A stretch of 62,617 nt of DNA from positions 1 through 62,617 of the forward strand of contig JAKSLE010000015.1 in NCBI GenBank assembly GCA_024401365.1, written 5' to 3'. The notes beneath the pieces were generated by a model, which saw nothing but the letters and a program-made list of their open reading frames with translations, was not told the origin of the DNA and searched no databases. This stretch comes from Bacteroidales bacterium. GTDB taxonomy: Bacteria > Bacteroidota > Bacteroidia > Bacteroidales > Marinilabiliaceae. Below are positions 784 through 61,099 of the stretch, piece by piece; the first letter of the stretch is position 1; each line of letters starts with the position of its first letter. The translations under genes and the position numbers were made by a program.

Positions 784-1848
784 CTATTGCTCTACTTTGA
801 AGTATAGTTTGTAGAAATTCAAGTCTTTGTCTTCGTCAAAGCCTTTCTCCATATAATACCTACCGCCATGCACATACACGTGGAAGTTCTTGTCAAGCTT
901 CAATATACTCTTGAAGTTCTTCTTCTCCCCTTTTACCGCATCTTTTGATATGTGGAATGTCTCTGGTAATGGCTGGGGCAACTCGTGCTCTACCTCATAC
1001 CTCTCTTTGTAGTCGTTGAAGGCTTCTATTATATCTGGCTCTGCCATAACATTATTGGCAAAGTCTTGGTGCGAGAAGTCTGGCGTATTCTCAAAGAAAC
1101 TCATCGTTCTGTTGACCATGTCCATCTGGTCTACCTTGGTAAAATGATTTTCATCGTTGAATACGTCTTTCACAAACCCTCTACACATCTGCATGTAGTT
1201 GTCCGTGAAATAGTAATTGTCTTCTCTTGGCTGTAATCCTAAAAAATCTTCTACCCAGAAGTGAGCCTCTTGTCCTTTATTTATATTGTCTACAGCACAA
1301 ATCCTGTACCCGCCTTCTTGCTCTATATTGAATACTATGCAACCTTTGTCTATCTTTTTTATGCTGATGCCTTCTTGCGCTTTCAACTGTATCTCACTGT
1401 CTAGACCAAAATTTACCCGGATAAAGGTCTCCTTATTCTCACTCTTGAAAATACCTATGGCATCACAAATCTCACCATCAACTACCACATCCGTAAAGTG
1501 TACCACGTATATCTCCCCTCCCCTGATATTGGGATGGTTCGAACACTCAAATAGCCTGCTGGCTATAGCTACCGATGCATTGTAAAACTTCGTGCCGTCC
1601 CCAAAAACACTCTCACAGATCTCTTTTACTGGTGGAAGGTCTGTAACATTGGCTACTTCCCCAAAGGTGTAGTAGGCTTCTGTCTTGAATGACTTGAAAA
1701 AGAATGTCTTCAAAACCTCCGACATCAATTCTTCGTCAGCCCCTACGTCTACTGGTCTCTTGGCAACTCGCAACACACCCCCAGAGGCCTTGGCTCCCAT
1801 TTGATGTACTACTAGTCCCGATATCTTGGCATTCGAACTCTCTATCAT
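784..1848 (-). CDS. Nucleoid-associated protein, NdpA/YejK-like (37-kDa family)
   Basis: A 354-residue protein that opens with the family pattern of a short strand and helix (ISGLVVHQMG, residues 9-18), followed by the long mixed alpha/beta body typical of the 37-kDa nucleoid-associated family. Relatives bind the nucleoid, and their biochemical role is poorly defined. There is no signal peptide or membrane segment, in keeping with a cytoplasmic DNA-associated protein. It is tightly linked to the esterase gene downstream (3-base gap) and lies 21 bases after the thioredoxin-family gene. Assignment rests on overall resemblance and length, since the family has no short catalytic motif. Confidence 0.75.
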   Translation of the reverse strand: MIESSNAKISGLVVHQMGAKASGGVLRVAKRPVDVGADEELMSEVLKTFFFKSFKTEAYYTFGEVANVTDLPPVKEICESVFGDGTKFYNASVAIASRLFECSNHPNIRGGEIYVVHFTDVVVDGEICDAIGIFKSENKETFIRVNFGLDSEIQLKAQEGISIKKIDKGCIVFNIEQEGGYRICAVDNINKGQEAHFWVEDFLGLQPREDNYYFTDNYMQMCRGFVKDVFNDENHFTKVDQMDMVNRTMSFFENTPDFSHQDFANNVMAEPDIIEAFNDYKERYEVEHELPQPLPETFHISKDAVKGEKKNFKSILKLDKNFHVYVHGGRYYMEKGFDEDKDLNFYKLYFKVEQ

Positions 1849-1869
1849 ATCTATACTTGTCTTTTCGCC

Positions 1870-2385
1870 TTACTCTTGCTTCTTCTGCTCTGCTGCAGCT
1901 TCTTGCTGCTGTCGCTGCATCTGCATCTGATATATCTGCACAAGTTCCGTAGGTAATGGCTTGTTCAATAGCAATACTGCTACATTTATGGCTAGTCGCT
2001 CATAATACATAAAACCGCCCAACATGTTAGGCTGTCCTTCTTGTGGAACGAATAGCAACGATGGTATGCTCCTTATACCAAATGCCTGTGATACCTCGGG
2101 CTCTTTGTCTACATCTATCCTGTATACATCTATCGCCCCTTCGTATGTCTGCGCAATGGCTTCTACTATAGGCGACAATGCCTTGCATGGCCCACACCAA
2201 GTAGCATAAAAGTCTACTAACACTGGCTTCGTGCCGTTAAACTTATATTCCGACTTTGTATAATCAAATACTTTGGCCTTGAATTCTTCCGAGGTCATGT
2301 TATGTACATACTCCTTCTGCTCCTGAGCATAGGAACAGATAATGGCTACTACCGCCAATAGCATTGTGGTCAATATTCGCTTCAT
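1870..2385 (-). CDS. Exported thioredoxin-like protein
   Basis: A 171-residue protein with an N-terminal signal peptide (MKRILTTMLLAVVAIICSYA) and a thioredoxin fold. The redox motif is WCGPC (residues 63-67) in the usual ATWCGPCKALSPI context, and the cis-Pro segment is RSIPSLL. The C-terminus is a Gln-rich tail. Having both cysteines, it should act as a periplasmic dithiol-disulfide oxidoreductase; in Bacteroidales such proteins support oxidative folding or disulfide repair. The direction of electron flow cannot be read from sequence. It sits 8 bases after xseB, in the same transcription unit. Confidence 0.87.
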   Translation of the reverse strand: MKRILTTMLLAVVAIICSYAQEQKEYVHNMTSEEFKAKVFDYTKSEYKFNGTKPVLVDFYATWCGPCKALSPIVEAIAQTYEGAIDVYRIDVDKEPEVSQAFGIRSIPSLLFVPQEGQPNMLGGFMYYERLAINVAVLLLNKPLPTELVQIYQMQMQRQQQEAAAEQKKQE

Positions 2386-2393
2386 CGTCTTCG

Positions 2394-2618
2394 TTATTTA
2401 ACGTTATCTAATGCCTCACTGATCTTCTGCTGCGTCTGCGAAAGATAGGCTTCACAATCAGTGAGCAACTTGGTCGCCTTAGTAACATCACTAAGCAACT
2501 CGTCCATCGAAGCCACATCTTCGGGCTTCTGCAACTTCTGGAGTATCTCTTCTACTTCAGATATCGCTTTATCGTATGAGAAAACGTCTTGTTCCTCTGT
2601 CTCTTTTTTCTTTGCCAT
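2394..2618 (-). CDS. xseB: Exodeoxyribonuclease VII small subunit
   Basis: A 74-residue helical protein. The pattern YDKAISEVEEILQKL (residues 15-29), then acidic and lysine heptads and a C-terminal QQKISEAL, matches XseB, the small subunit that wraps the helical arm of XseA in exonuclease VII (single-strand exonuclease in repair). The large-subunit gene xseA is usually directly upstream but is not in this window; the upstream neighbour here is a histidine-kinase-like gene, 14 bases away. The ATG start is clear. Confidence 0.85.
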   Translation of the reverse strand: MAKKKETEEQDVFSYDKAISEVEEILQKLQKPEDVASMDELLSDVTKATKLLTDCEAYLSQTQQKISEALDNVK

Positions 2619-2632
2619 CTCGCGTCTGTATT

Positions 2633-4246
2633 TTATTCCCCTCTTGGAAGGGTGAGAACTGCCGTAGTACCCACTCCCTTTGTACTCTTTATATCTATCT
2701 CTCCCCCATTGGCTTCTGCCAACGTCTGCGAAATGTACAGTCCAAGTCCCGTACCTTTCTCTTTCTTCGTTCCTATAATCGGATCTATCTGTCGCTTAGC
2801 CCTTATCTCTGCTAGGCGCGCCTCATCCATACCTATTCCAGTGTCTTCTACTACAATGGATACCGTAGAGTTGCTGTTGACAACTGTCAACGATACACTG
2901 CCTCCTTGATGCGTAAAAGTAATCGCATTGGATACCAAATTACGCAATATAGTGTCAAAGTGACTCTCATTGGCTACCACATTCACAGCATCGTCCAAAT
3001 CTACACTGAATTGTATATTCTTCGATTCTGCCAACATCTGGAATACCTCTACTATCCTCTCAACATGAAAGGCTACATTCAATACGCTCTTCTCTATCTC
3101 TTTCTCTCCGCCAATTTGCGACCAGGCTAGTACATTACCCAACATCAAGTATAGCTGCTGCGATGAGTTGTACATCGAGCGACTGTAATTTATCAACTCT
3201 TTATTCTGCGAATTTATAGCATATTGCATCTGCAATTCAGCAAAACATATCAATTGGTTGAATGGCGTCACAAATTCTTGGGCAGCGTACGATAATACCC
3301 TTTGCCTTTCGTCATTCTCTACATTGAGCATCTTCATACGCCTTTTCTTCCTCAAGTTGAGCAGCAATAACCATATTACTACTCCTATAAGGAACAACAA
3401 CGACAATCCCACATAATAGGCCCTTGTACTGGATTTCTGACTTCTCATCCTCTCCCCATCAAGGTCTATCTCTAACTTTTCTACCTTGTCCTTGAGCTTT
3501 ATCTCATTCTCTATGCTCTTGGAGGTCGACATAGGATTTGGCGTGTTCATCAATACATTGATAAACTTCTTGTTCTCTTCATGGTTGAAGTATACATGCT
3601 GCTCTAATGACTTATAGGCATTCTGATAATCGCCAACACTCGCATATAACTCCGACCTGACCGAATATACTTTTTGAAGTAGTGTATTGTTGTTCGCCCG
3701 CTCTCCAAACATCTGTGCAGTATCCAAAAGCGCTATCGCCTCTTTTACATCTCCTCCCCTAACCAATGTTTGCGCTATGTCTGTATAAAGGGTCGACTTG
3801 AACGAATAGTACTTCGTCTTATCCATCAATTCCCTCGAATGTTGAAGGCTCTTAATGGATTTGACATAGTCCCCCATCCTGAAGTATACCTTGCCTATAC
3901 CATCGTATATATACATCATCACGACTGTGTCGCTCTGTATAAAGTCCCTCTGCATCAACTGGTCATAGAGCTTCAACGACTCTTGATGCATACCGTTGTC
4001 TCCATATACCAACACTAGCCTGTCTGTCGCATTCCAGGCATCTGTAACATTCTTGGCCATCGAAATGGCTTGCTTGTATATGTCTATTGCTTTCGCCTGG
4101 TCTCCCGACTGAACAAAAGCATCTCCGATAGGTAGCAACTTGGCGGTCTCGGAATCACGCAATTGCCCCACCGCACTTCCAAGTATAGTGCAGAGGAGTA
4201 GCATGACCAAAACTACCTTTTCTATCTTATTTCCTAGTATATTCAT
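2633..4246 (-). CDS. TPR sensor histidine-kinase-like protein lacking the phospho-acceptor His
   Basis: A 537-residue protein: signal or anchor segment (residues 10-28), periplasmic TPR repeats (about 40-220), coiled coil, transmembrane helix (about 276-297), dimerisation helix, and a C-terminal HATPase domain. The ATPase part is well preserved, with an N-box (NLVSNAITF), G1 (DTGIGMDE) and G2 (GTGLGLYIS). The HisKA motif, normally S-H-E-x-R-T-P, reads A-Q-E-F-V-T-P with Gln at residue 323, so it cannot autophosphorylate in the standard way. It may bind ATP and signal by interaction, or pair with a second kinase. Start taken at ATG 4246 rather than the TTG one codon earlier. Confidence 0.83.
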   Translation of the reverse strand: MNILGNKIEKVVLVMLLLCTILGSAVGQLRDSETAKLLPIGDAFVQSGDQAKAIDIYKQAISMAKNVTDAWNATDRLVLVYGDNGMHQESLKLYDQLMQRDFIQSDTVVMMYIYDGIGKVYFRMGDYVKSIKSLQHSRELMDKTKYYSFKSTLYTDIAQTLVRGGDVKEAIALLDTAQMFGERANNNTLLQKVYSVRSELYASVGDYQNAYKSLEQHVYFNHEENKKFINVLMNTPNPMSTSKSIENEIKLKDKVEKLEIDLDGERMRSQKSSTRAYYVGLSLLFLIGVVIWLLLLNLRKKRRMKMLNVENDERQRVLSYAAQEFVTPFNQLICFAELQMQYAINSQNKELINYSRSMYNSSQQLYLMLGNVLAWSQIGGEKEIEKSVLNVAFHVERIVEVFQMLAESKNIQFSVDLDDAVNVVANESHFDTILRNLVSNAITFTHQGGSVSLTVVNSNSTVSIVVEDTGIGMDEARLAEIRAKRQIDPIIGTKKEKGTGLGLYISQTLAEANGGEIDIKSTKGVGTTAVLTLPRGE

Positions 4247-26563: not shown

Positions 26564-28519
26564 TCAAGACTTCATCTTACCACCCTCAAGGATAGCTCCT
26601 ACTTCATCTTGAATCTTCTTCTTGAAATCGTCAACCGACATCGTACCCAAAACGCCCTCGCCCTGACGACGTACGTTGAGTGTACCATCAGCTTCCTCTT
26701 TCTCGCCTACGATAACTAGGTATGGTATACGCTTCATCTCATTGTCACGTATCTTCTTACCTATCTTCTCGTTACGCTCATCTATAATTGTACGCACGTC
26801 ATTGGCATTGAGCTCTTTCATTACCTTATGTGCGTAGTCATTATACTTCTCACTTACTGGCAATACTACTACCTGCTCAGGTATCAACCACAATGGCAAC
26901 TTACCTGCTGTGTGCTCGAGCAATACAGCCACAAAGCGCTCCATCGAACCAAATGGCGCACGGTGAATCATTACTGGTCTGTGCTTCTGGTTGTCAGCTC
27001 CGATATACTCCAACTCAAAACGCTCTGGCAAGTTGTAGTCTACCTGAATAGTACCAAGCTGCCACTTACGACCAATGGCATCCTTTACCATGAAGTCAAG
27101 CTTTGGACCATAGAATGCAGCCTCACCTGTCTCACAGATGTATGGTACACCCTTCTCCTCACATGCCTCAATGATAGCACGCTCTGCCTTGTCCCAGTTC
27201 TCGTCACTACCAATGTACTTCTCCCTGTTGTTAGGGTCACGGAGAGATACTTGTGTAGTATAGTTCTTGAAATCAAGTGTCTTGAAAATGTAAAGAATAA
27301 TATCCATTACCTTCTCAAACTCTTCCTTGATCTGCTCTGGACGACAGAACAAGTGCGCATCATCCTGTGTAAATCCTCTTACACGTGTCAAACCATGAAG
27401 CTCACCACTCATCTCATAACGATATACCGTGCCAAACTCCGCAAAACGCAAAGGAAGATCCTTATACGAACGTGGCTTAGATCGGAATATCTCACAGTGG
27501 TGTGGACAGTTCATTGGCTTAAGCATATACTCCTCACCCTCTTGTGGTGTGTGTATTGCCTGAAAGCTGTCCTTACCATATTTTGCATAGTGACCTGATG
27601 TCTTGTACAACTCAATGTTGCCAATGTGTGGAGTGATAACTGGCTCATATCCATACGACTCCTGTACACCACGGAGGAACTGCTCCAATCTGGCACGCAA
27701 ACGCGCACCCTTTGGCAACCACAATGGCAATCCTTGTCCTACTCGAGCCGAGAATGTAAAGAGCTCAAGCTCCTTGCCCAACAAACGGTGGTCACGCTTC
27801 TTAGCCTCCTCAATGAGAGCCAAGTGCTCCTCAAGCATCTTCTGCTTAGGGAATGTGATACCATAAATACGTGTGAGCTGTGGCCTCTTCTCGTCTCCTC
27901 TCCAGTAAGCACCAGCAAGACTTGTAATCTTTACAGCCTTGATCGACTCTGTGTTGGAAATGTGCGGACCACGACAAAGATCTGTAAATGAACCTTGTGT
28001 ATATGTCGAAATAGTACCGTCCTCAAGTTCGTTGATGAGCTCTACCTTGAACTCCTCTCCTCTCTCTCCAAACATCTTCAAGGCATCTGCCTTTGTAATG
28101 TCCTTACGTACTACATCATTCTTCTGTCTCGCAAGCTCAAGCATCTTGTCCTCAATGGCCTTGAAGTCTGCATCTGTGAATGGACGACCAACTGGTGGCT
28201 GTACATCATAGTAGAATCCACTCTCAAGAGCAGGACCGATACCAAACTTAGTACCTGGGAAAAGTGTTTGAATAGCTTCCGCCATCAAGTGCGCAGATGT
28301 ATGCCAGAAAGCATGCTTGCCTTCAGCATCTTCCCACTTGAAAAGCTTTATTGTTGCATCTTGATTAATAGGACGGCTGAGGTCGTACAACTGACCATCA
28401 ATCGAGCATACAAGGACCTCCTTAGCCAAATTGCGACTAAGCGACTCTGCGATCTGCTGACCAGTCACGCCTGCCTCGTACTCTCTTTTACTTCCGTCTG
28501 GAAATGTAATCTGAATCAT
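26564..28519 (-). CDS. thrS: Threonyl-tRNA synthetase
   Basis: A 651-residue class II synthetase: TGS domain (1-62), editing domain with [10 protein letters not shown] (about 73-82, the metal-type HxxxH motif) and C-R-G-P-H, catalytic core with motif 2 ([22 protein letters not shown] region) and motif 3 ([13 protein letters not shown]), and the anticodon-binding C-terminus beginning about residue 545. Length is normal. It heads the operon with infC, rpmI and rplT. A -7 box TATCTTTG lies at 28563-28570 on the minus strand, about 45 bases before the start codon. Confidence 0.97.
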
Positions 28520-28626
28520 CTTTTATCTGTATCTTTCGTCAAAGTATAGTTTTTGACGGGCGCAAAGATACGATAAATTATCATTAGTTATACCAATTCA
28601 AGCCACTTTTTTCGCATCATTGCGCT

Positions 28627-31419
28627 TTAAATACGACTTCTCAGCCTCTTTATCAACTGCCTGATTTCTACTATAATTAACATCGTACTTGTCCCAAGCG
28701 CTACATATACCCAGTCCATCAACGACATAGTGGCTGTCATCACAATATTTCCACCATAAACTACTACCATAAAATGCGATAGCGGAATAAAGAGTGATAT
28801 AAGTATAAACCTAAAGGTTGTCTTGTCAATAAAACACCTGAAGAGCGACTTCGTGGAACCAAATGCCTTGATTGATATAAGATTCCAAAATATACACATG
28901 GTGAATATCGTCATTATCAGCGTCCTTTCATATACACTGAATTGCGAAGCAACGTCTGTAGGTATCGCCCAAACCAACTCCTTTGTCCATAAATCACTGA
29001 TTTGTACTATGTCCATACCAGCACTGAGTAGCCAGAACAGAAAAACAACTATAAAATCATAGACAAAGACCATAATTATATATGGTACAAAATCTGTTGA
29101 TTTCACATATTTATTATAGACTCCTGTAGATTGACTGCTGAGTGACTTCTCTCCTCTCAATACCAATAACGCCATACCAATTATGGCAGTATCTATAATA
29201 TTCAGCCAAAACATCTGTACCACAGATATAATGTAACTGCCGGCTAATACAACACCCAATGTATTCAAAAGAACTAACGTGGCCGAAACTCCCATCATCA
29301 AACCGTATAGACGACCCTCATATCGAATCATCTCACGACCCAACCTCAAGGCCCTCTCCATCACATTCAAATGGTCTTTGTATATGGATATCTCTGTACC
29401 ACTGTGATTGTCCGACGTGGTCTTGCGCATTACTATCGAAACATCAGCTATCTCTTGCAACTGATCAATACGTCTCTCGGATGACACAACGGCTACAAAT
29501 TCACCATCGTTCTGCATAGTCCTGACAATATTCAACCTCTCCGACAATGGGGCTTGCGATATAGCTCGTACCGACTTTATGGAATCGTATGTTACAACAC
29601 CTCCGTTCTCCGACAATATTTCACCTAAGGTCTTACTCTGACTACCCACACTTCCCTTCGACTCTACCTCACTCTTTGTATCAACAAGACCCGACTTGGC
29701 CGCCATGTTGTCTATCATCTGCTTCTCAAGACTCGAAACAATCTTGACGTCAATGTTAACTCCCCACATATTACGCACAAACTGAGCAATTCCACTGCGC
29801 GCCGTATCTTCAATGCACATAAATCCAAGAAGAATAAACTTGTACGACCTCAATTGCTCTACACTGTCTATCTTCTTTACCGCAGCTGGCACATGGGCAT
29901 AAGCTATGGTCAATATATTGTATGGTGTATTTTCTATAGATTTCTCAAAACTCTTATATATAGCATAGTCATTTTCTATCTGTTTATCTCCACATTGTAC
30001 CATACTGCACAACGACGCCACCTCTTTCGGCTTGCCATGTATATATATAGTATTGATTGCATCTCCTTGAACTAGAGCTGCACACATACCCGACTCTCGC
30101 CTGCTGGACATACGGTCTATTACTACCGCATCTTTTCTGAGCGACTCTATGTCTACCCCACAGCTCGACAGCCAATTCAACATCGTAATCTCTTCCGTGG
30201 AACCATACTCCCTTGGCCTACTGTGCTCCGATTCTCTCCCCACAAAAGCAGTGGTCGAAAGCGCTATACCTTTATGAAAATACCCCAACGCCTCCTTCGA
30301 AACCGAATACTCATCGTCTTCTTTAATAAAACCAACAGTATCTTCTGCGTCTATAAGCAACCAATCTTCTTTCTTCGGAGAATAACCCAACTTCACACGC
30401 TGTACTTTCATGTTACCATTGGTTATCAAACCCAACCTGCCCGTAATAACCGAAGATATCATACCTAGCATAAATGGCGTGTACATGTCTTTTACCCTCA
30501 CACCCATCTTGCCAAGTCTGTTGTTAGCAACATACAACGCAATACTCATGACGTATGGTATACCTATAGGTAATAATGCCGTCAGAATATTCGTAGGCAC
30601 ACTTAGCACATCAATTAGTGTCTTTATGGAACCTATAGATAAACATATTATTATAAGGAGCACTGAATAGAGTATCGATACCAGCGACACCATCTGCGCC
30701 ACTTTGCTGATAAGCATGATAAATGGCACTCTGACCGCCTCGTCTCGCTTCGTAGCTACCCTGCTTCTCCCATATTCTGTCTGAACTCCAACTCGCGTAA
30801 CCTTCATAACGCCAGTTCCTTCAACAACCGAGGAACTGCCCATAACCCAGTCTTGTGGGTAAATATGACTCGCATCTGTCGTCGGACCTAAACCTACCCC
30901 CTTCAAAACATCATTATTTCCTCCTATCAACGACTCATCAACTCTTAACCCCGACGCATTCAATAAAATACCATCTGCCGGAACTATAACGCCTTCTTCT
31001 AGTAGCACAATATCGTCTACTACAATATCAAGCGCCGTAACGGTCATCGACTTGTCTCCTCGCCTGACTTGTACCTTCTCTCCATCAAAATTTACTTGAG
31101 CCCTGGTCTTTTTCTGCGTATGCTTGCTAATAAATCTCAATACCACATACGCTATCGCATACGATAATACAACACAGACCAGATTGCAAACGGCTCGATA
31201 TCGCATGTTCCCATCTTCAGGATCTATCAGAAAATACGATGCTAGACAACACGCAAACAGAATACCTATTACCCACAACTGAACATTTTTCAAAAATGGA
31301 GACAAAAGGACATAACCCTCAGTTTCAGAACCTCCCGTCCTTTCCATACGGTTGATTCCGAATTTTTTGCGCGAATAAACAACGCCCATCTCACTAAGTC
31401 CAGTTCCTATGCGGCCCAT
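28627..31419 (-). CDS. P-type ATPase homologue with all catalytic motifs lost (pseudopump)
   Basis: A 930-residue membrane protein aligning end to end with Ca2+-type (PMCA-like) P-type ATPases of Bacteroides: an N-terminal GLS-x(8)-RKKFG-x-N segment, an A-domain (VPADGILL, VDES, VMGSSSVVEGTG), two early membrane pairs, N/P domains and a C-terminal membrane block with VVQMFWLNIID. Every catalytic site is changed. TGES is I-G-G-N (165-168). PEGLP of helix 4 is PIGIP (284-288). DKTGTLT is G-R-L-G-L-I-T, so the phosphorylated Asp is Gly327. TGD is S-S-L (562-564). GDGxND is S-S-E-R-R-I (646-651). The frame is intact with no stops, so it is kept as a non-pumping protein, perhaps a sensor, regulator or scaffold. 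Confidence 0.85.
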   Translation of the reverse strand: MGRIGTGLSEMGVVYSRKKFGINRMERTGGSETEGYVLLSPFLKNVQLWVIGILFACCLASYFLIDPEDGNMRYRAVCNLVCVVLSYAIAYVVLRFISKHTQKKTRAQVNFDGEKVQVRRGDKSMTVTALDIVVDDIVLLEEGVIVPADGILLNASGLRVDESLIGGNNDVLKGVGLGPTTDASHIYPQDWVMGSSSVVEGTGVMKVTRVGVQTEYGRSRVATKRDEAVRVPFIMLISKVAQMVSLVSILYSVLLIIICLSIGSIKTLIDVLSVPTNILTALLPIGIPYVMSIALYVANNRLGKMGVRVKDMYTPFMLGMISSVITGRLGLITNGNMKVQRVKLGYSPKKEDWLLIDAEDTVGFIKEDDEYSVSKEALGYFHKGIALSTTAFVGRESEHSRPREYGSTEEITMLNWLSSCGVDIESLRKDAVVIDRMSSRRESGMCAALVQGDAINTIYIHGKPKEVASLCSMVQCGDKQIENDYAIYKSFEKSIENTPYNILTIAYAHVPAAVKKIDSVEQLRSYKFILLGFMCIEDTARSGIAQFVRNMWGVNIDVKIVSSLEKQMIDNMAAKSGLVDTKSEVESKGSVGSQSKTLGEILSENGGVVTYDSIKSVRAISQAPLSERLNIVRTMQNDGEFVAVVSSERRIDQLQEIADVSIVMRKTTSDNHSGTEISIYKDHLNVMERALRLGREMIRYEGRLYGLMMGVSATLVLLNTLGVVLAGSYIISVVQMFWLNIIDTAIIGMALLVLRGEKSLSSQSTGVYNKYVKSTDFVPYIIMVFVYDFIVVFLFWLLSAGMDIVQISDLWTKELVWAIPTDVASQFSVYERTLIMTIFTMCIFWNLISIKAFGSTKSLFRCFIDKTTFRFILISLFIPLSHFMVVVYGGNIVMTATMSLMDWVYVALGTSTMLIIVEIRQLIKRLRSRI

Positions 31420-31480
31420 GCTATGGATATAGAAATCATTTTACCTTAGTGTCTACGTTAATTAACATATATTAGTTGCA

Positions 31481-31517
31481 AAAAAAGAGAGGGAAAGACT
31501 AATGCCCTTCCCTCTCT
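31481..31517 (-). terminator. Terminator of tkt
   Basis: AGAGAGGGAA / TTCCCTCTCT, ten perfect pairs, with T7 following on the minus strand; about 30 bases past the tkt stop. Confidence 0.88.
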
Positions 31518-31547: not shown

Positions 31548-33566
31548 TTAGAGCATAGACTTTACCTGATTGTAAACATTCTCTGCTGTGTAGCCGAGCT
31601 TCTCATCAAGTACCTTGTAAGGAGCAGAGAAACCGAATGTCTCAAGGCCCCATACCTTCGACTTAGGATCAGCACCAATGAGGAAGCCCTGGAGGTTAAC
31701 TGGAAGACCAGCTGTCATACCAAATACCTTAGCACCTGCAGGAATTACGCTCTGCTGGTATGCTGCGCTCTGTGAACGGAAGAGACCCTCAGATGGTACA
31801 GATACGATACGAACCTTAACACCATCCTTGCGGAGGAGCTCTGCACCTGAAACAAGTGTAGATACCTCAGAACCTGTAGCAACCATTACTACATCAGCAT
31901 TCTCATCTGAACCTGCAACTACATAGCCACCCTTGCGAGCCTGCTCATAGTCATTACCCGCTGGAAGGTTGTTGATATTCTGACGAGAAAGGATAAGTGC
32001 TGTAGGACTCTCAACATTCTCCATAGCCATAGCCCATGCAGTTGTTGTCTCCTTAGCATCAGCTGGACGAAGAACAAGTGTAGAGTTCTTGCCATCGTGA
32101 CGCTTGAGCTTCTCCATAAGACGGATCTGTGCCTCGTGCTCAACTGGCTCATGAGTAGGTCCATCCTCACCTACGCGGAATGCATCGTGAGTCCAGATGA
32201 ACTTAACTGGGAGCTGCATGAGAGCTGCCATACGTACTACTGGGAGCATATACTGGCTGAATACGAAGAATGTACCACATGCTGGGATAACACCACCATG
32301 AAGTGCCATTCCTACACAGCAACATGCCATTGTAAACTCAGCAACACCTGCCTGGAAGAATGCACCAGAGAAATCATTTGCTGTGAGAGACTTTGTCTTC
32401 TTCAAGAAGCCGTCTGTCTTATCTGAGTTAGAAAGGTCTGCAGAAGCACAGATCATGTTAGGAACCTGCTCAGCGAGAACCGAAAGACATGCTGCAGATG
32501 CGTTACGTGTAGCATCATTGTCCTTCTGTACACACTTGCTCCAGTCAATCTTTGGAGCCTTGCCCGAGAACCACTCTGTCTGCTGTGCAGCCTTCTCAGG
32601 ATTTGCAGATGCCCAAGCCTTCTCCTCTGCATAGCGATCTGCTACGATCTTAGCAAGCTCCTCAGCACGCTTAGCGTAGAGCTCCTTAACTTCTGGGAAG
32701 ATAACGAATGGATTCTCAGGATCACCACCAAGATTCTTTACAGTATTCTTGTATGCGTCACCACCGAGAGGTGCACCGTGTGTCTTGCAGTTGCGCTCGT
32801 ACGAAGAACCATCTTCCTTCAAAGCACCCTTACCCATGATACACTTACCAATGATGAGGGTTGGCTTGCCCTTAACTGCCTTTGCCTTTACGATAGCAGC
32901 ACGAATCTGGTCAGCATCGTTACCGTTGATCTCGATAACTTCCCAGTTCTGTGCACGATACTTAGCAGCAGTATCCTCGTTCATAACCTCCTTAGTCTCT
33001 GTAGAGAGCTGGATGTCATTGCAGTCATAGAACATAATGAGGTTGTCCAAGCCAAGGTTACCAGCGATACGTGCAGCACCCTGTGAAACCTCCTCCTGAA
33101 TACCACCATCCGAAATATATGCGTAGATAGTCTCCTTTGCAAATGTTGGGTTGCCTGTGTGTGCAGCAAGGAACTTAGCAGCAATAGCAGCACCAATAGC
33201 ATATGCATGACCCTGACCAAGTGGACCAGATGTATTCTCAATACCACGAGCTACCTCATACTCTGGGTGACCTGTTGTAGGCGAACCCCACTGACGAAGC
33301 TGTGCACACTCATCAAGAGTGAACTTGCCAGCCAATGCCAACTGAGCATAGAGCATTGGAGCCATGTGACCTGGATCGAGGAAGAAACGGTCGCGACCTA
33401 CCCATGAAGGATTCTTTGGATCATACTGAAGGAACTCTGAATAGAGAACGTTGATGAAGTCAGCACCACCCATAGCACCACCTGGGTGACCACTCTTTGC
33501 CTTCTCTACCATAGAAGCAGCCAAAATACGGATATTGTCAGCCGCTCTTTGTGTTACGTTTGTCAT
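31548..33566 (-). CDS. tkt: Transketolase
   Basis: A 672-residue thiamine-diphosphate enzyme moving two-carbon ketol units in the pentose phosphate pathway. Visible sites: GHPGGAMG near residue 25, HPEYE and GPLGQGHAYAIGAA (about 115-128), the ThDP/Mg block ISDGGIQEEVSQGAARIAGN, and in the pyrimidine domain FTMACCCVGMALHGG and WTHDAFRVGEDGPTHEPVEH. Full length. Codon use is of the highly expressed kind. It is followed on the same strand, upstream, by rpiB (57-base gap), so the two pentose phosphate genes probably form an operon rpiB-tkt. Confidence 0.96.
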   Translation of the reverse strand: MTNVTQRAADNIRILAASMVEKAKSGHPGGAMGGADFINVLYSEFLQYDPKNPSWVGRDRFFLDPGHMAPMLYAQLALAGKFTLDECAQLRQWGSPTTGHPEYEVARGIENTSGPLGQGHAYAIGAAIAAKFLAAHTGNPTFAKETIYAYISDGGIQEEVSQGAARIAGNLGLDNLIMFYDCNDIQLSTETKEVMNEDTAAKYRAQNWEVIEINGNDADQIRAAIVKAKAVKGKPTLIIGKCIMGKGALKEDGSSYERNCKTHGAPLGGDAYKNTVKNLGGDPENPFVIFPEVKELYAKRAEELAKIVADRYAEEKAWASANPEKAAQQTEWFSGKAPKIDWSKCVQKDNDATRNASAACLSVLAEQVPNMICASADLSNSDKTDGFLKKTKSLTANDFSGAFFQAGVAEFTMACCCVGMALHGGVIPACGTFFVFSQYMLPVVRMAALMQLPVKFIWTHDAFRVGEDGPTHEPVEHEAQIRLMEKLKRHDGKNSTLVLRPADAKETTTAWAMAMENVESPTALILSRQNINNLPAGNDYEQARKGGYVVAGSDENADVVMVATGSEVSTLVSGAELLRKDGVKVRIVSVPSEGLFRSQSAAYQQSVIPAGAKVFGMTAGLPVNLQGFLIGADPKSKVWGLETFGFSAPYKVLDEKLGYTAENVYNQVKSML

Positions 33567-33623: not shown

Positions 33624-34064
33624 TTAGTAACGAGATATCTTCTCTACACGACGCTGATGACGTCCGCCCTCAAATGCCGTGTTGAGGAACGCCTGTGCAA
33701 ACTCCCAGCACTGCTCTTCTGTGAGAAATCTCGCTGGCATCACACAGATATTTGCATCATTGTGCTGACGCGCAAGCTCTGTAATCTCCTTGTTCCAACA
33801 ATAAGCCGAACGTACCTCATTGTGCTTGTTCAACGACATGTTAATGCCATTACCAGAACCACAGAACGCAATGGCACGCTTGAGCTCGCCTTTGCTGATA
33901 GCCGAAGCTAGTGGGTGCGCATAATCAGCATAATCGCACGAATCTGGTGTGTGTGTGCCGAAATCCTGAATATCAAAGCCAGCCGCAATAAGACGAGCCT
34001 TGATAGCCTCTTTCATCTCAAAACCAGCATGGTCCGAAGCCATACCTAGTACTTCTTTCTGCAT
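33624..34064 (-). CDS. rpiB: Ribose 5-phosphate isomerase B
   Basis: A 146-residue RpiB/LacAB-fold enzyme interconverting ribulose 5-phosphate and ribose 5-phosphate. The start ASDHAGFEMKEAI (about residues 9-21) has the family D-H-A-G; DFGTHTPDSCDYADYA supplies the substrate loop, and CGSGNGINMSLNKH (about 69-82) is the phosphate and catalytic loop, where the Cys or Thr base sits. It precedes tkt in the same operon. Confidence 0.95.
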   Translation of the reverse strand: MQKEVLGMASDHAGFEMKEAIKARLIAAGFDIQDFGTHTPDSCDYADYAHPLASAISKGELKRAIAFCGSGNGINMSLNKHNEVRSAYCWNKEITELARQHNDANICVMPARFLTEEQCWEFAQAFLNTAFEGGRHQRRVEKISRY

Positions 34065-34458: not shown

Positions 34459-35061
34459 TCAATTCCTTCCAAACTTCAGACTTCCTGCCATCTTCTCAGC
34501 ATCCATCTGCACTTCAACTATACCTAATACCTTCCTGTAAACCTTTACCAACTCTTTCAGTCTGGCTATCTCTTGCATCTTCTCAAAAACATCTGTATTG
34601 ATCTCCTTCCCCTTCTCAAACTCTATCTTTACCTCATCAACCTCAAACTGCGTCTGACATAGATTAACCCATTTCAAATATGGTACAATGTCGTTCAATT
34701 CTTTATACTGATAGTGATAGAAGAAGAACAACTTATCCCCACTCCTGTACTGACAGTTGTCTCCCATCTTGAATACACCATTCATAAATGGTAATCCATA
34801 CTCTACTTCCCTGCCCTCGGTAAACGAATAGTGAATCCTGTCTACTACACAATGATTCGACTTCTCATCTTCCGCAGCCTTAAACTCTATAATTACACCA
34901 CTGTAGTCGCAGTCACCAATAGGAGATAGTTCGTCAGCCCCCTTTCTGACAAAAGAGGCCCCACGCAAAAAGATATAGTCCACCTTCCACGACGTCTTGC
35001 CCGTCGCGGCACTCTGCAAGTGACCTAATCTTTCCCGTGCAATATCTTCTATTACATTCAT
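34459..35061 (-). CDS. Cytoplasmic protein of unknown function (200 aa)
   Basis: I do not recognise this protein. There is no signal peptide or membrane helix. It starts with a helical segment (NVIEDIARERLGHLQSA), has a central mixed alpha/beta part with many aromatic residues (KLFFFYHYQYKEL near residue 110), and ends in a charged helix pair (FEKMQEIARLKELVKVYRKVL). Start set at ATG 35061, because the more upstream start is TTG. It is monocistronic with its own terminator. The preceding relA and sensor-kinase genes are on the same strand but 136 bases away. Confidence 0.65.
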   Translation of the reverse strand: MNVIEDIARERLGHLQSAATGKTSWKVDYIFLRGASFVRKGADELSPIGDCDYSGVIIEFKAAEDEKSNHCVVDRIHYSFTEGREVEYGLPFMNGVFKMGDNCQYRSGDKLFFFYHYQYKELNDIVPYLKWVNLCQTQFEVDEVKIEFEKGKEINTDVFEKMQEIARLKELVKVYRKVLGIVEVQMDAEKMAGSLKFGRN

Positions 35062-35196
35062 ACTACCTATCAATTTGTTGGTGCGTTAAACTGTTGCGAC
35101 TGCACTCAGCATTGCAAATATAAATAAATTTCTGTCAAACAAACAATATTGTTAGTTAAATAAATTTTCTCAACTACCTGCAGATGCCATTCATGG

Positions 35197-53640: not shown

Positions 53641-56430
<2,790 letters not shown>

Positions 56431-57048: not shown

Positions 57049-58443
57049 ATGAGTAGACTCTCTAAATTTTTCAGTGCAACGGGCGTAGCGGTTATCTCAA
57101 TCGCTACCACCGTCGCATTTTCTTCTTGCGCTACTTATTACCAGAAAATTGCAACTTTCAACCACAACTTCGAACGCAAGGATTACGCGGCAGCTAAATC
57201 TTATCTGGAGAATAACAAAAAATTGGCTAGCAAGAAAAATACCGCAGTGCTGTACGACCTCAACTTGGCTACTGTGGCTCACTTGACTGGCGACTATAAC
57301 CAGAGTATACAACTCTTCAATAAAGCTGATAATTATTACCAAAGTCATACAAAAAATATCGGTCTCGAAGCTGTAGCCCTCTTGGCTAACCCTAACGTGA
57401 CCCCTTATAAACTTGAAAATTTCGAGCCTGTAATGCTGCACTTCTTCCAGGCTCTCAATTATATAGCAGTAGATAACTACGAGGAGGCTATCGTGGAGTG
57501 CCGCCGCATGAACGAGGTCCTCAACGCCCTTTCTGATAAGTTCAAAATCCTGAACAACGCTAAGCATTATTCTCAGGATGCTTTCGGCCACTACCTCATG
57601 GGTATCCTCTACGAAACTGTGGGCGACGCTAATAATGCTTTCATCGCTTACCGCAATGCCCTCAACATCTATCAGGGCGATTACTCTGCAATGTACAAGA
57701 TTCCAGCGCCTACGGAACTTAAATATTCTCTCGTACGCGCCGCTAGAGCTACCGGATTTACTACCGAGGCCAACCAGTACGAGAAGGAACTGGAAATTTC
57801 TGCTCAATTGCCTCCTGTGTCTTCAGGAAGAATGGTGGCTTTTATATTGGATGGCTTCGCCCCTGTCAAGGATCAGGTCGATTTGACTTTTACCCGAATA
57901 GGTAACTCCGATGGCTTGTTCAGCTTCCAGACTGAATACGATGGCGCTAACTTGCTTATTCCTTATATCCCCGACAAGGATGGCGATGACGACCCAGTGA
58001 ATATCATCCACATGTCTCTGCCTAAATATGTGTCTCGCCGTTCTGAGTGCGACGCCGAACGTCCTGTCGTATTGGTCGACAAGGAGATGCAAATGGCAGC
58101 CGTAGCCGAGGATATCGAGGCTATCGCCCGTCAGAGCTTGCACGACCGTATATGGGCCGAGGTGGGTAAGTCTCTCTTGCGCGTAATCGCTAAACAGGCC
58201 GCCAGCAAGGCTGTTAGTAATAAAAATGATATCCTAGGCGCTATATTCGAAATAGGTTCAGCTATCGCCGAACGCGCCGATACCCGCCATTGGCAGTCCC
58301 TCCCCGGTCGTATAATGGTGGTGGATAGATACCTCTCGCCTGGTTCTCATACCATCGAATACACTTCTTGCGGATATAAGTCTACCGCAACCGTGGAAGT
58401 GAGAGCTGGCAAAACGTCTTTCGTAGTTATCCCTAACTACTAA
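57049..58443 (+). CDS. Outer-membrane-type TPR lipoprotein (COG3014-like), partner of LpoB-like protein
   Basis: A 464-residue lipoprotein: long signal peptide with lipobox FSSC (Cys about 27). Residues 30-250 carry TPR-like repeats (VLYDLNLATVAHLTGDYNQS, YIAVDNYEEAIVECRRMNEV, YLMGILYETVGDANNAFIAY), and the C-terminal half forms a beta-rich domain ending GYKSTATVEVRAGKTSFVV. Matches COG3014-like proteins that sit next to LpoB-family genes in gene pairs or trios. It lies 21 bases after the LpoB-like gene, so co-transcribed. Probably helps control cell-wall synthesis from the outer membrane. Confidence 0.78.
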   Translation: MSRLSKFFSATGVAVISIATTVAFSSCATYYQKIATFNHNFERKDYAAAKSYLENNKKLASKKNTAVLYDLNLATVAHLTGDYNQSIQLFNKADNYYQSHTKNIGLEAVALLANPNVTPYKLENFEPVMLHFFQALNYIAVDNYEEAIVECRRMNEVLNALSDKFKILNNAKHYSQDAFGHYLMGILYETVGDANNAFIAYRNALNIYQGDYSAMYKIPAPTELKYSLVRAARATGFTTEANQYEKELEISAQLPPVSSGRMVAFILDGFAPVKDQVDLTFTRIGNSDGLFSFQTEYDGANLLIPYIPDKDGDDDPVNIIHMSLPKYVSRRSECDAERPVVLVDKEMQMAAVAEDIEAIARQSLHDRIWAEVGKSLLRVIAKQAASKAVSNKNDILGAIFEIGSAIAERADTRHWQSLPGRIMVVDRYLSPGSHTIEYTSCGYKSTATVEVRAGKTSFVVIPNY

Positions 58444-58537: not shown

Positions 58538-61099
58538 ATGAACCTTTCTGACCTCCCTTCTGGCGAGGAAGCCATAATACTCAACGTCGCAGGTAGCGGT
58601 GCATTCCGTAAACGTATCATCGAAATGGGCTTCGTTAAGGGTAAACGTGTACGAAGTATCAAAAACGCCCCCCTCAACGACCCTATCGAGTACCGAATAA
58701 TGGATTATTATGTCTCGTTGCGCCGCGCCGAGGCTGATCTTATTACCATAAGTACCAACCTCGATATGCCTGATAACGAGACTAAGGAGTACCCTTCTTC
58801 TCTCGAGGATGGCGCCCACGAACCTACCGTACATCGCGAACCTAAGGAAATAACCGTAGCTTTCGTGGGTAACCCTAACTGCGGAAAGACGACTCTTTAT
58901 AACCACTTGAGCGGTGCCCATGAACATACGGGCAACTACTCGGGTGTGACTATCGGCGCTACAGATACCCGATTTAAATACAAGGATTATATTTTCCATA
59001 TAATCGACCTCCCCGGTACCTATAGTATATCGCCGTATTCTCCCGAAGAGACTTTCGTTCGAGCTAAACTGATCGAACTCGACCCAGATATCATCCTTAA
59101 TGTCTTGGATGCTGCCAACTTGGGCCGTAACTTATACCTTACAACTCAACTTATCGACATGGAGTTGCGTACCGTCGCAGCGCTGAATATGTACGATGAG
59201 CTGGAAAAAACTGATACCCAACTGGATTATGTCCAACTTGGACGTATGATGGGTATCCCTATGGTGCCTACCGTTGGCTCTAAGGGCCGCGGCGCCGATA
59301 CTTTGCTGGATAAAATAATCGATGTCTACGAGGGAACAGATAGATTCGCGCGCCGTATCAAAATCAACTACGGCCTCCAAATAGAGGAGACTATAGTCAA
59401 AATATGCGACGAGGTAAATACGAAAGCACAACTCCCCGATACTATCCCTGCCCGTTACTTGGCTATCAAATTGCTCGAGAACGATATGGATTTCGTATGG
59501 GATTACCTTAAGGCGGATAACCTCCAGGATGAAATCGGCTCTCTTACACAACTTCGTTCTGAATTGCAGAACAACCTCCACTCATCCGATCTCGACGCCC
59601 TCTTGAGCGATATGAGATATGGTTTCATAGATGGAGCCCTCGAGGAGACTGTACATAATGGCCCTAACCGCCAACCTATGTCGCCAACTAAGTCTCAGTA
59701 TATAGATAATGTTCTTACTCACCGAGCTTGGGGTATCCCTCTTTTCATCCTCATCATCTGGATAATGTTCCAATGTACGTTTACTCTTGGACAGTACCCT
59801 ATGGATTGGATCGAAGCTGGCGTGAATTTCATCGCCGATACCGTCAAGGAGTTCATGCCCGATGGCCCTCTCAAGGATCTTATCGTCGATGGTATCATCC
59901 AAGGCGTTGGCGGCGTTATCGTCTTCCTACCTAATATCCTTATCTTGTTCCTTTTTATATCGTTCATGGAGGATACGGGGTATATGGCTCGCGCAGCTTT
60001 TATAATGGATAAGATAATGCACAAAATGGGACTCCACGGCAAGTCTTTCATCCCCCTCATCATGGGCTTCGGGTGCAATGTCCCCGCCATAATGGCTACC
60101 CGTACCATCGAGGATCGCAAAAACCGTATGCTGACAATGATGATCAATCCGTTCATGTCTTGCTCAGCTCGCCTCCCTGTATATATCCTCTTCTGCGGAG
60201 CTTTCTTCCCCGAGCACGCCGGAACAGTATTGTTCTCTATATACTTCTTCGGTATCATCATGGCCGTCTTGGTATGCCGCGTGTTCAAACGCTTCATTTT
60301 CAACGGACAAGAGCTGCCTTTCGTAATGGAACTGCCTCCTTACCGTATGCCTACCCTCCGCTCTACTTTGCTGAATATGTGGAGCAAGGCGTCTCAGTAC
60401 CTTTCTAAAATGGGTAGTATCATCATGGTGGCTTCTATCATAGTTTGGTTCCTCGGCTATTATCCTAAAAACGATGTTTTACAGGCCGAACGCGATACAG
60501 CTATAGAACTCGTAAAACAAAAAACTGCGAGCAACCTTAATGCTCCAACTGATCAGACCGAGGCTTCAAAGGTGACTGAAGATAGACTGAATGCTGTCAT
60601 CGATAGCATTGATATAGCTTACTTGTCTCGCGCTCAGGAGAACTCTTATATAGGTCAGATAGGTAAGGCTATCGAACCTGTAATACGACCTCTGGGATTC
60701 GACTGGAAAATGGGTGTCAGCTTGGTTTCTGGCGTAGCTGCTAAGGAGATCGTCGTCTCTACCTTGTCCGTTTTGTACAAGGCACCTGAAGATGACGAGA
60801 ATAGCGAAGTGGGTCTCATCAATAGCTTGAAAAAGGAATCTCACAACGGACAGCCTGTCTATACCACACCTACCGTCGTCTCTTTCCTACTTTTCACATT
60901 GCTCTACTTCCCTTGCTTGGCAACCCTCACTGCTATCAAAAACGAAACAGCCCATTGGAACGATTTCAATACAGCTTCCCGCCGTCGCCGCCAACATAAG
61001 GGCTCTTGGCGTTGGGCTATATTCGTGGCCGCATACACTACTACCCTCGCATGGATAGTATCTTTCATAGCTTATAACGTTCTTTCTTATTTGATGTAA
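58538..61099 (+). CDS. feoB: Ferrous iron transporter, FeoA-FeoB fusion
   Basis: An 853-residue inner-membrane Fe2+ transporter. Residues 1-75 are a FeoA/SH3-like domain (MNLSDLPSGEEAII, GFVKGKRVRS). The FeoB G domain follows: G1 AFVGNPNCGKTTLYN (about 108-122), G2 NYSGVTIG, G3 DLPGTYS, and a G4 of type NMYD. After the helical GDI comes the membrane part with two gate repeats (NPFMSCSARLPVYILF and VSLVSGVAAKEIVVSTLSV). The fusion is usual in Bacteroides and Porphyromonas. It is followed 4 bases later by the Cys-rich partner protein. Confidence 0.95.
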   Translation: MNLSDLPSGEEAIILNVAGSGAFRKRIIEMGFVKGKRVRSIKNAPLNDPIEYRIMDYYVSLRRAEADLITISTNLDMPDNETKEYPSSLEDGAHEPTVHREPKEITVAFVGNPNCGKTTLYNHLSGAHEHTGNYSGVTIGATDTRFKYKDYIFHIIDLPGTYSISPYSPEETFVRAKLIELDPDIILNVLDAANLGRNLYLTTQLIDMELRTVAALNMYDELEKTDTQLDYVQLGRMMGIPMVPTVGSKGRGADTLLDKIIDVYEGTDRFARRIKINYGLQIEETIVKICDEVNTKAQLPDTIPARYLAIKLLENDMDFVWDYLKADNLQDEIGSLTQLRSELQNNLHSSDLDALLSDMRYGFIDGALEETVHNGPNRQPMSPTKSQYIDNVLTHRAWGIPLFILIIWIMFQCTFTLGQYPMDWIEAGVNFIADTVKEFMPDGPLKDLIVDGIIQGVGGVIVFLPNILILFLFISFMEDTGYMARAAFIMDKIMHKMGLHGKSFIPLIMGFGCNVPAIMATRTIEDRKNRMLTMMINPFMSCSARLPVYILFCGAFFPEHAGTVLFSIYFFGIIMAVLVCRVFKRFIFNGQELPFVMELPPYRMPTLRSTLLNMWSKASQYLSKMGSIIMVASIIVWFLGYYPKNDVLQAERDTAIELVKQKTASNLNAPTDQTEASKVTEDRLNAVIDSIDIAYLSRAQENSYIGQIGKAIEPVIRPLGFDWKMGVSLVSGVAAKEIVVSTLSVLYKAPEDDENSEVGLINSLKKESHNGQPVYTTPTVVSFLLFTLLYFPCLATLTAIKNETAHWNDFNTASRRRRQHKGSWRWAIFVAAYTTTLAWIVSFIAYNVLSYLM

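Follow-up and report, generated by a model that had tools for sequence, protein, structure and literature searches.

A bacterial family of pseudo-P-type ATPases, possibly pumps turned into ATP-independent receptors or scaffolds

Few enzymes are understood as well as P-type ATPases, and the loss of their activity together with retention by selection has hardly been described. Here we analyse a gene for a P-type ATPase homologue stripped of its catalytic motifs, carried on a 62,617-nucleotide contig of a Bacteroidales bacterium (JAKSLE010000015.1, assembly GCA_024401365.1), the whole of which is referred to below as the window. The human protein TMEM94/ERMA, which we liken to it by published description only, has a P-type fold with A-, P- and N-like domains, lacks TGES, carries hydrophobic residues between the prolines of the fourth membrane helix (M4) and showed no ATPase activity (PMC12134183). 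In contrast to the protein described here, it is a eukaryotic endoplasmic reticulum (ER) protein and retains D417, the Asp proposed to be phosphorylated (PMC12134183). Its function is disputed, the available part of a further paper arguing that it is the ER Mg2+ ATPase (PMC13322241). Most P-type signature residues are likewise not identifiable in the P4-ATPase-like domain of Plasmodium GCbeta, although this domain is eukaryotic and fused to a guanylate cyclase, according to the available part of its description (PMC6592433). Among the matches listed in the open-access literature, outside which most subscription papers lie, there was no bacterial pseudo-P-type ATPase, the published cases found being eukaryotic (TMEM94, disputed, and PfGCbeta). 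A pseudoenzyme of P-type fold is already known, then, while a stand-alone bacterial form with a half-way relative is new within the literature searched.

The protein and its lost motifs

The open reading frame, on the reverse strand, has an ATG start and runs through 930 codons without interruption. Its product matched the Pfam families E1-E2_ATPase (1.2e-26) and Cation_ATPase_C (5.2e-7), both exceeding Pfam's cut-off, and in the PDB the solved type-II P-type ATPases plant ACA8 (best, 4.3e-22), PMCA1 and SERCA2, in that order. Against the NCBIfam profile for PMCA-type ATPases, TIGR01517, it scored 92.3 bits, below the equivalog cut-off of 507. Profile alignment by hhalign with an intact paralogue from the same genome (L002) was near full-length (E 2e-45, 846 columns). 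By descent and fold, with homology over the A, P and membrane domains, the protein falls within the P-type ATPase superfamily on its sequence, and also on an AlphaFold2 model that leans on catalytic relatives; this model, built with an alignment (A3) that includes 42 of them, supports a ten-helix layout. We thus read the sequence as that of a genuine, PMCA-like (P2B) P-type ATPase homologue, in agreement with an initial annotation made from the DNA letters, which had called the open frame of 930 codons a P-type ATPase homologue. With the PMCA-type (P2B) Ca2+-ATPases of TIGR01517 it shares the ten-helix layout and the A/P/N domain order, unlike them in that its catalytic and ion-site residues are gone.

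The motifs were read from the alignment of the protein with catalytic relatives. Gly327 stands in place of the phosphorylatable Asp of DKTGT, as Gly does in all four orthologous proteins, and the adjoining Lys has become R328; the phosphatase Glu of TGES is Asn168 in all four; and the Mg2+ site GDGTND reads SSERRI (D647S, N650R, D651I/V). The M4 Glu is replaced by Ile285 (Ile or Val at this position) and the Asp of the sixth membrane helix (M6) by Thr744 (Thr or Ile), the pair that belongs to the Ca2+ site of P2B pumps. The Lys of KGA has given way to His461, and the FSTERKYM stretch of the N domain is also gone. The losses that the initial annotation had read at DKTGT (Gly327), PEGLP (PIGIP), TGD (SSL) and GDGxND (SSERRI) were right by this alignment. 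It had also recognised the loss of TGES, but its IGGN is off by one residue, the alignment giving GGNN at residues 166-169, and while the helix-6 remnant VQMFWLN that it pointed out is present, the ion-site Asp behind it is absent. The KGA Lys, the FSTERKYM stretch and the M6 Asp are losses beyond its list. Because the nucleophile, the Mg2+ ligands, the phosphatase Glu and the ion ligands are all gone, a Post-Albers cycle does not appear credible.

Orthologues, paralogues and selection

A family search over 71 genomes returned orthologues in three congeners, G066 (44% identity), G065 (43%) and G067 (41%). At the former motif sites all four pseudo proteins carry GGNN (within GGNNDV), G-R-[LF]-G and S-E-x-R. 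The initial annotation had left it to orthologues whether the motifs would be intact or changed in the same way; the three others lack the motifs at the same sites, and the replacement residue is often identical. The same search gave a more distant, half-way form in a fifth species, G060 (27% identity to the window protein), which keeps DKTG and has TGD for TGE, PLGM for PEGL, KGE for KGA and GSESRD for GDGTND. This form has the appearance of an intermediate frozen on the way to inactivity, and its sequence suggests that the ion site, the phosphatase Glu and the Mg2+ site may have been lost first and the phosphorylated Asp later.

Motifs were read in 65 rows, five of them pseudo or half-way (L003, L004, L005, L006 and L055, the last being the window protein) and 60 catalytic in type, keeping DKTGT; one row (L016) ends at a contig edge within GDGxND, another (L061) duplicates L010, and L064 lies on a contig equal in length to that of L043. 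A contig scan with two peptide patterns returned 23 loci, namely the three orthologues and 20 loci catalytic by their motifs, relatives lacking both patterns being such as would escape it. No further pseudo forms were found in a sample of the order (393 genomes, of which 101 had a match; motifs were read at 30 fetched loci) or in a sample of the class (395 genomes, E 1e-90), where only the window's own protein and one from G091 (L056, catalytic) appeared; in the family and order searches motifs were read at the fetched loci, lower-scoring places lying outside that set. A viral origin was considered and rejected, as two peptide patterns from the alignment of the four sequences met no relative in a scan of viral contigs.

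One intact paralogue is present in the window's own genome (L002), the initial annotation having raised the question of a catalytic copy, and G060, G065, G066 and G067 have one each (L102-L105). In these five, TGE[P/T], PEGLP, DKTGT, KGA, TGD, GDGTND and the M6 Asp are all intact. In a FastTree phylogeny of 76 rows (omitting L020, L023-L031, L051 and the second copies L055 and L061) the pseudo and half-way forms made up a clade with support 1.0 on a long branch. The approximately unbiased (AU) test, on 34 rows, retained as sister of this clade the paralogue groups b (p 0.25), c (0.62) and d (0.55), the c paralogues of four pseudo or half-way species (0.18) and a free placement (0.53); the sole placement that it excluded was as sister to the G060 c paralogue (p 0.04). 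In the 71-genome search, species with b paralogues and species with pseudo forms did not overlap, several of these genomes being 81-91% complete; this fits descent from b and is no proof of it.

Some of the other catalytic copies have features of their own. An additional PMCA-type copy in G067 (L106, a frame of 1047 codons with motifs intact) pairs in the tree, at support 0.99, with L084 from a different family; the clade around the two also contains L017 of the congener G057. The b-type paralogues L010 and L011 (G055, G058) keep DKTGT and GDGTND, have Asn for the M6 Asp (WVNMIMN) and read PEGLS or PEGLQ at M4, changes that are possibly a second, separate shift of ion specificity. Downstream of the b-type paralogue in L009 and L010 lies an M24 metallopeptidase gene (Pfam), with similar-looking downstream frames in L007, L008 and L011, and in L007-L011 the residue after TGE is L, M or P in place of S.

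The four pseudo-bearing species all have full-length frames without stops. Pairwise codon models across the five species rejected a ratio of nonsynonymous to synonymous substitution rates (omega, or dN/dS) of 1 in 10 of 10 pairs, with twice the log-likelihood difference ranging from 138 to 685. By the 95% grid sets, omega does not exceed 0.05 between any two of the four pseudo genes, or 0.1 in pairs with G060, values that are bounds from an 11-point grid with a lowest point of 0.01, dS being saturated (5.6 to unbounded) in the ATPase genes. Identity between the window gene and its orthologues was 31-34% at third codon positions, 54% at first and 66-68% at second positions.

Alignment A3 comprises 47 rows, 42 of them catalytic, with 46 of 47 candidates kept and L038 dropped for unknown residues; the distant rows L018, L019, L021, L022, L050 and L052 are among the 42 used for column counts and lie outside the 36 used for the sliding scan described below. 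Its columns conserved to at least 90% in the 42 catalytic rows number 187, of which the four pseudo proteins keep 52, have changed 96 in all four and are mixed at 39. All four carry the same new residue at 39 of the 96 changed columns, compared with 173 invariant columns among the 743 others (Fisher p = 4e-4). Residues 304-345, around the former phosphorylation site, reach 67% identity among the four, the highest of eleven hand-drawn stretches, and the A domain (residues 107-228) 60%, with 41% to the half-way form. The G060 form shares the new residues Q622, S647, E648, R650, L684, S712, L715, I730 and F737, which would fit an ancestor already without the Mg2+ and ion sites.

The motif losses are fixed, not drifting. 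A full-length homologue whose catalytic residues are gone, conserved as such across orthologues and under purifying selection, has the marks of a pseudoenzyme, and we hold with high confidence that the protein is a non-pumping one kept by selection. The initial annotation had proposed just such retention for a non-pumping task and had named intact motifs in orthologues or a dN/dS near 1 as grounds for giving it up; neither was found, dN/dS being far from 1 in every pair, and its proposal stands.

Possible roles of the protein

In 10 of the 11 stretches the pseudo set showed lower conservation than the catalytic c set of five species, the exception being the extracytoplasmic M7-M8 loop, where identity is 64% among the four pseudo proteins and 29%, 32% and 32% in three sets of catalytic proteins. 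In a sliding scan of 899 windows of 32 residues, residual conservation peaked exactly at residues 802-833 (p = 0.002, 2000 column shuffles), and D803, S808, D809, W811, P820, E831, R832 and T833 are the same across the four pseudo proteins and the G060 form alike. In Na,K-ATPase the beta subunit docks on the M7-M8 loop of the alpha subunit, which carries the SYGQ motif of alpha/beta assembly. This is the same topological loop as the docking site proposed here, with the difference that the loop of the pseudo protein is without SYGQ; the motif is absent from the prokaryotic group according to the available part of one source (PMC9609216). The parts of the protein best kept by selection are the frame of the A domain, the remodelled loop of the P domain and the M7-M8 ectodomain.

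We propose that the P2B-like ten-helix fold has been retained by selection for a job other than pumping, in which the M7-M8 loop would bind a periplasmic or membrane partner, much as Na,K-ATPase alpha docks beta, while on the cytoplasmic side the conserved framework of the A domain, together with the remodelled loop of the P domain, would make up a platform, either fixed or slow to switch, by which the bound state is reported or stabilised. The choice among sensing, regulation and scaffolding is one that we infer, and the evidence favours a binding site on the outer face over sensing at the former ion site, since that site has lost its ligands. An ATP-independent receptor or scaffold is, as a full account, our best explanation, with about an even chance of being right. 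That a whole bacterial family has turned from pump to such a receptor or scaffold, with the phosphorylation loop re-made, the ion site erased and the M7-M8 ectodomain newly under strong selection, we put just short of even, and partner docking through the loop as its main task is a more tentative suggestion still.

Several points weigh against this proposal. The pseudo protein changes at about four times the rate of the intact paralogue and, because its dN in the three window pairs is 0.53-0.57 as against 0.12-0.14 in that paralogue (0.05 in the neighbouring thrS), much of it is weakly constrained. The shuffle test assumes independent columns, and the bounds of the loop had been drawn by eye before the sliding scan. 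No docking partner was identified, a beta-like partner not having been searched for, and the housekeeping neighbours and monocistronic look of the gene make its locus one without a functional hint. AlphaFold2 given the four pseudo sequences alone reached a predicted local distance difference test score (pLDDT) of 36.2 and a predicted template modelling score (pTM) of 0.27, so that the good model depends on catalytic relatives. Loss of the N-domain Lys would not by itself prove inactivity; this Lys is absent from P1B and P6 ATPases according to the available part of a review (PMC10654040). ATP binding may also persist, by analogy with TMEM94, which was reported to bind AMPPCP with undetectable ATPase activity (PMC12134183).

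Since an intact c paralogue accompanies the pseudo or half-way form in each of the five species, the protein could instead regulate this PMCA-like pump by pairing with it or competing for its regulators, in the way that a dead paralogue of trypanosome AdoMetDC activates its partner (PMC5201418, in the part available); the better retention of the A domain and the first part of the P domain than of the N domain and membrane segments would suit such a role. We regard it as unlikely, as congeners that lack the pseudo protein (G055, G058) have related intact paralogues too, the grouping of these with c being weakly resolved, and the strongest over-conservation lies outside the cytoplasm. The terminal branches of the paralogue, 0.10-0.15 in pseudo-bearing species and 0.07-0.15 in four congeners without the gene, speak in the same direction, by a weak test. 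Somewhat less probable again is an uncoupled membrane conduit through which a lipid or small hydrophobic solute would pass without ATP, the M4 Glu and M6 Asp being replaced by uncharged residues and both M4 prolines kept. The retained PxxxP with Ile or Val for Glu in all four proteins is in its favour, as is TMEM94 (M4 PILPLL), which holds a phosphatidic-acid-shaped lipid with one chain beside the M4 site (PMC12134183). However, the M3-M4 and M5-M6 stretches show 46% and 52% identity among the four pseudo proteins as against 75% and 88% in the five-species c set, which means that the tightest constraint does not lie on the membrane path.

The conserved replacements at the old motifs might also be taken to mean that ATP hydrolysis or autophosphorylation has migrated to other residues, and USP53/54, labelled as pseudoenzymes, proved active (PMC12037411, in the part available). 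With the nucleophile, Mg2+ ligands, phosphatase Glu and N-domain Lys gone and neither Asp nor Glu at the D327 site (Gly in 4/4), this is highly improbable. Fast evolution is what a decaying gene would display, but decay, or an artefact of sequencing or assembly, is hardly conceivable given full-length frames in four separate genomes beside a common neighbour, replacements held in common and the rejection of omega = 1. Preferring the receptor or scaffold explanation, we note that the M7-M8 loop offers a specific, testable surface, and that a bacterial family in which orthologues and a common neighbour gene occur along with a catalytic paralogue and a half-way relative amounts to a natural experiment on the P-type fold without its cycle. 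For the pseudo gene, a name derived from homology alone such as 'calcium-transporting ATPase' would be wrong.

Genomic setting and features

Table 1. Features of the pseudo-ATPase locus and of the half-way form (window positions unless a contig is named; residue numbers are those of the window protein)
Feature	Position	Strand	Basis
Pseudo P-type ATPase gene, 930 aa, P2B/PMCA-like	28627..31419	-	Open reading frame, profile and PDB matches, alignment
Actuator-like (A) domain, residues 107-228, bounds drawn by hand	30736..31101	-	Stretch comparison
Former TGES/TGEP dephosphorylation site, now GGNN (166-169), invariant 4/4	30913..30924	-	Alignment
Former M4 ion site PEGLP, now PIGIP (284-288); both prolines kept 4/4, Glu to I/V 4/4	30556..30570	-	Alignment
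Former phosphorylation site DKTGT, now GRLGL; G327, R328, G330 invariant 4/4	30427..30441	-	Alignment
Former nucleotide-site KGA, now HGK	30031..30039	-	Alignment
Former TGD loop, now SSL (562-564); S563, L564 invariant 4/4	29728..29736	-	Alignment
Former GDGxND Mg2+ site, now SSERRI (646-651); S647, E648, R650 invariant 4/4, also in half-way form	29467..29484	-	Alignment
M6 ion-site region N740-T744; Asp absent 4/4	29188..29202	-	Alignment
Extracytoplasmic M7-M8 loop, residues 802-833, proposed partner-binding site	28921..29016	-	Over-conservation; helix positions from ten-helix layout
thrS, downstream neighbour at 4/4 orthologous loci	26564..28519	-	Profile match, neighbour comparison
Transketolase gene, upstream neighbour at 3/3 loci with long enough contig (G067 contig ends earlier)	31548..33566	-	Profile match
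Half-way pseudo-ATPase L006 (G060), beside valS	1477-4245; contig copy L108:12858-15662	+ (1477-4245)	Motif reading

A stem followed by a T-run lies at about 31480-31517, between the transketolase and pseudo-ATPase genes, and a TAnnTTTG box, of the Bacteroidetes -7 type, at 28563-28570 upstream of thrS; because of these two signals the pseudo-ATPase gene is probably monocistronic. Ahead of the four pseudo genes, the 130-150 upstream bases showed no TAnnTTTG box. A GTAAAAT sequence begins 25-56 bases before the start codon in all four (window copy at 31438-31444, reverse strand) and is a possible promoter element. In 11 congeners no pseudo gene was present within 1.2-1.5 kb upstream of thrS, and transketolase was not found there either.

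Elsewhere in the window, a 464-aa frame on the forward strand (57049-58443) with no Pfam match at 1e-5 lies between ligA (53853-55886) and feoB (58538-61099). A 204-aa frame on the reverse strand (34459-35073, TTG start), with no Pfam match at E 1, is situated between a histidine-kinase gene and the frame 33624-34064, which resembles rpiB.
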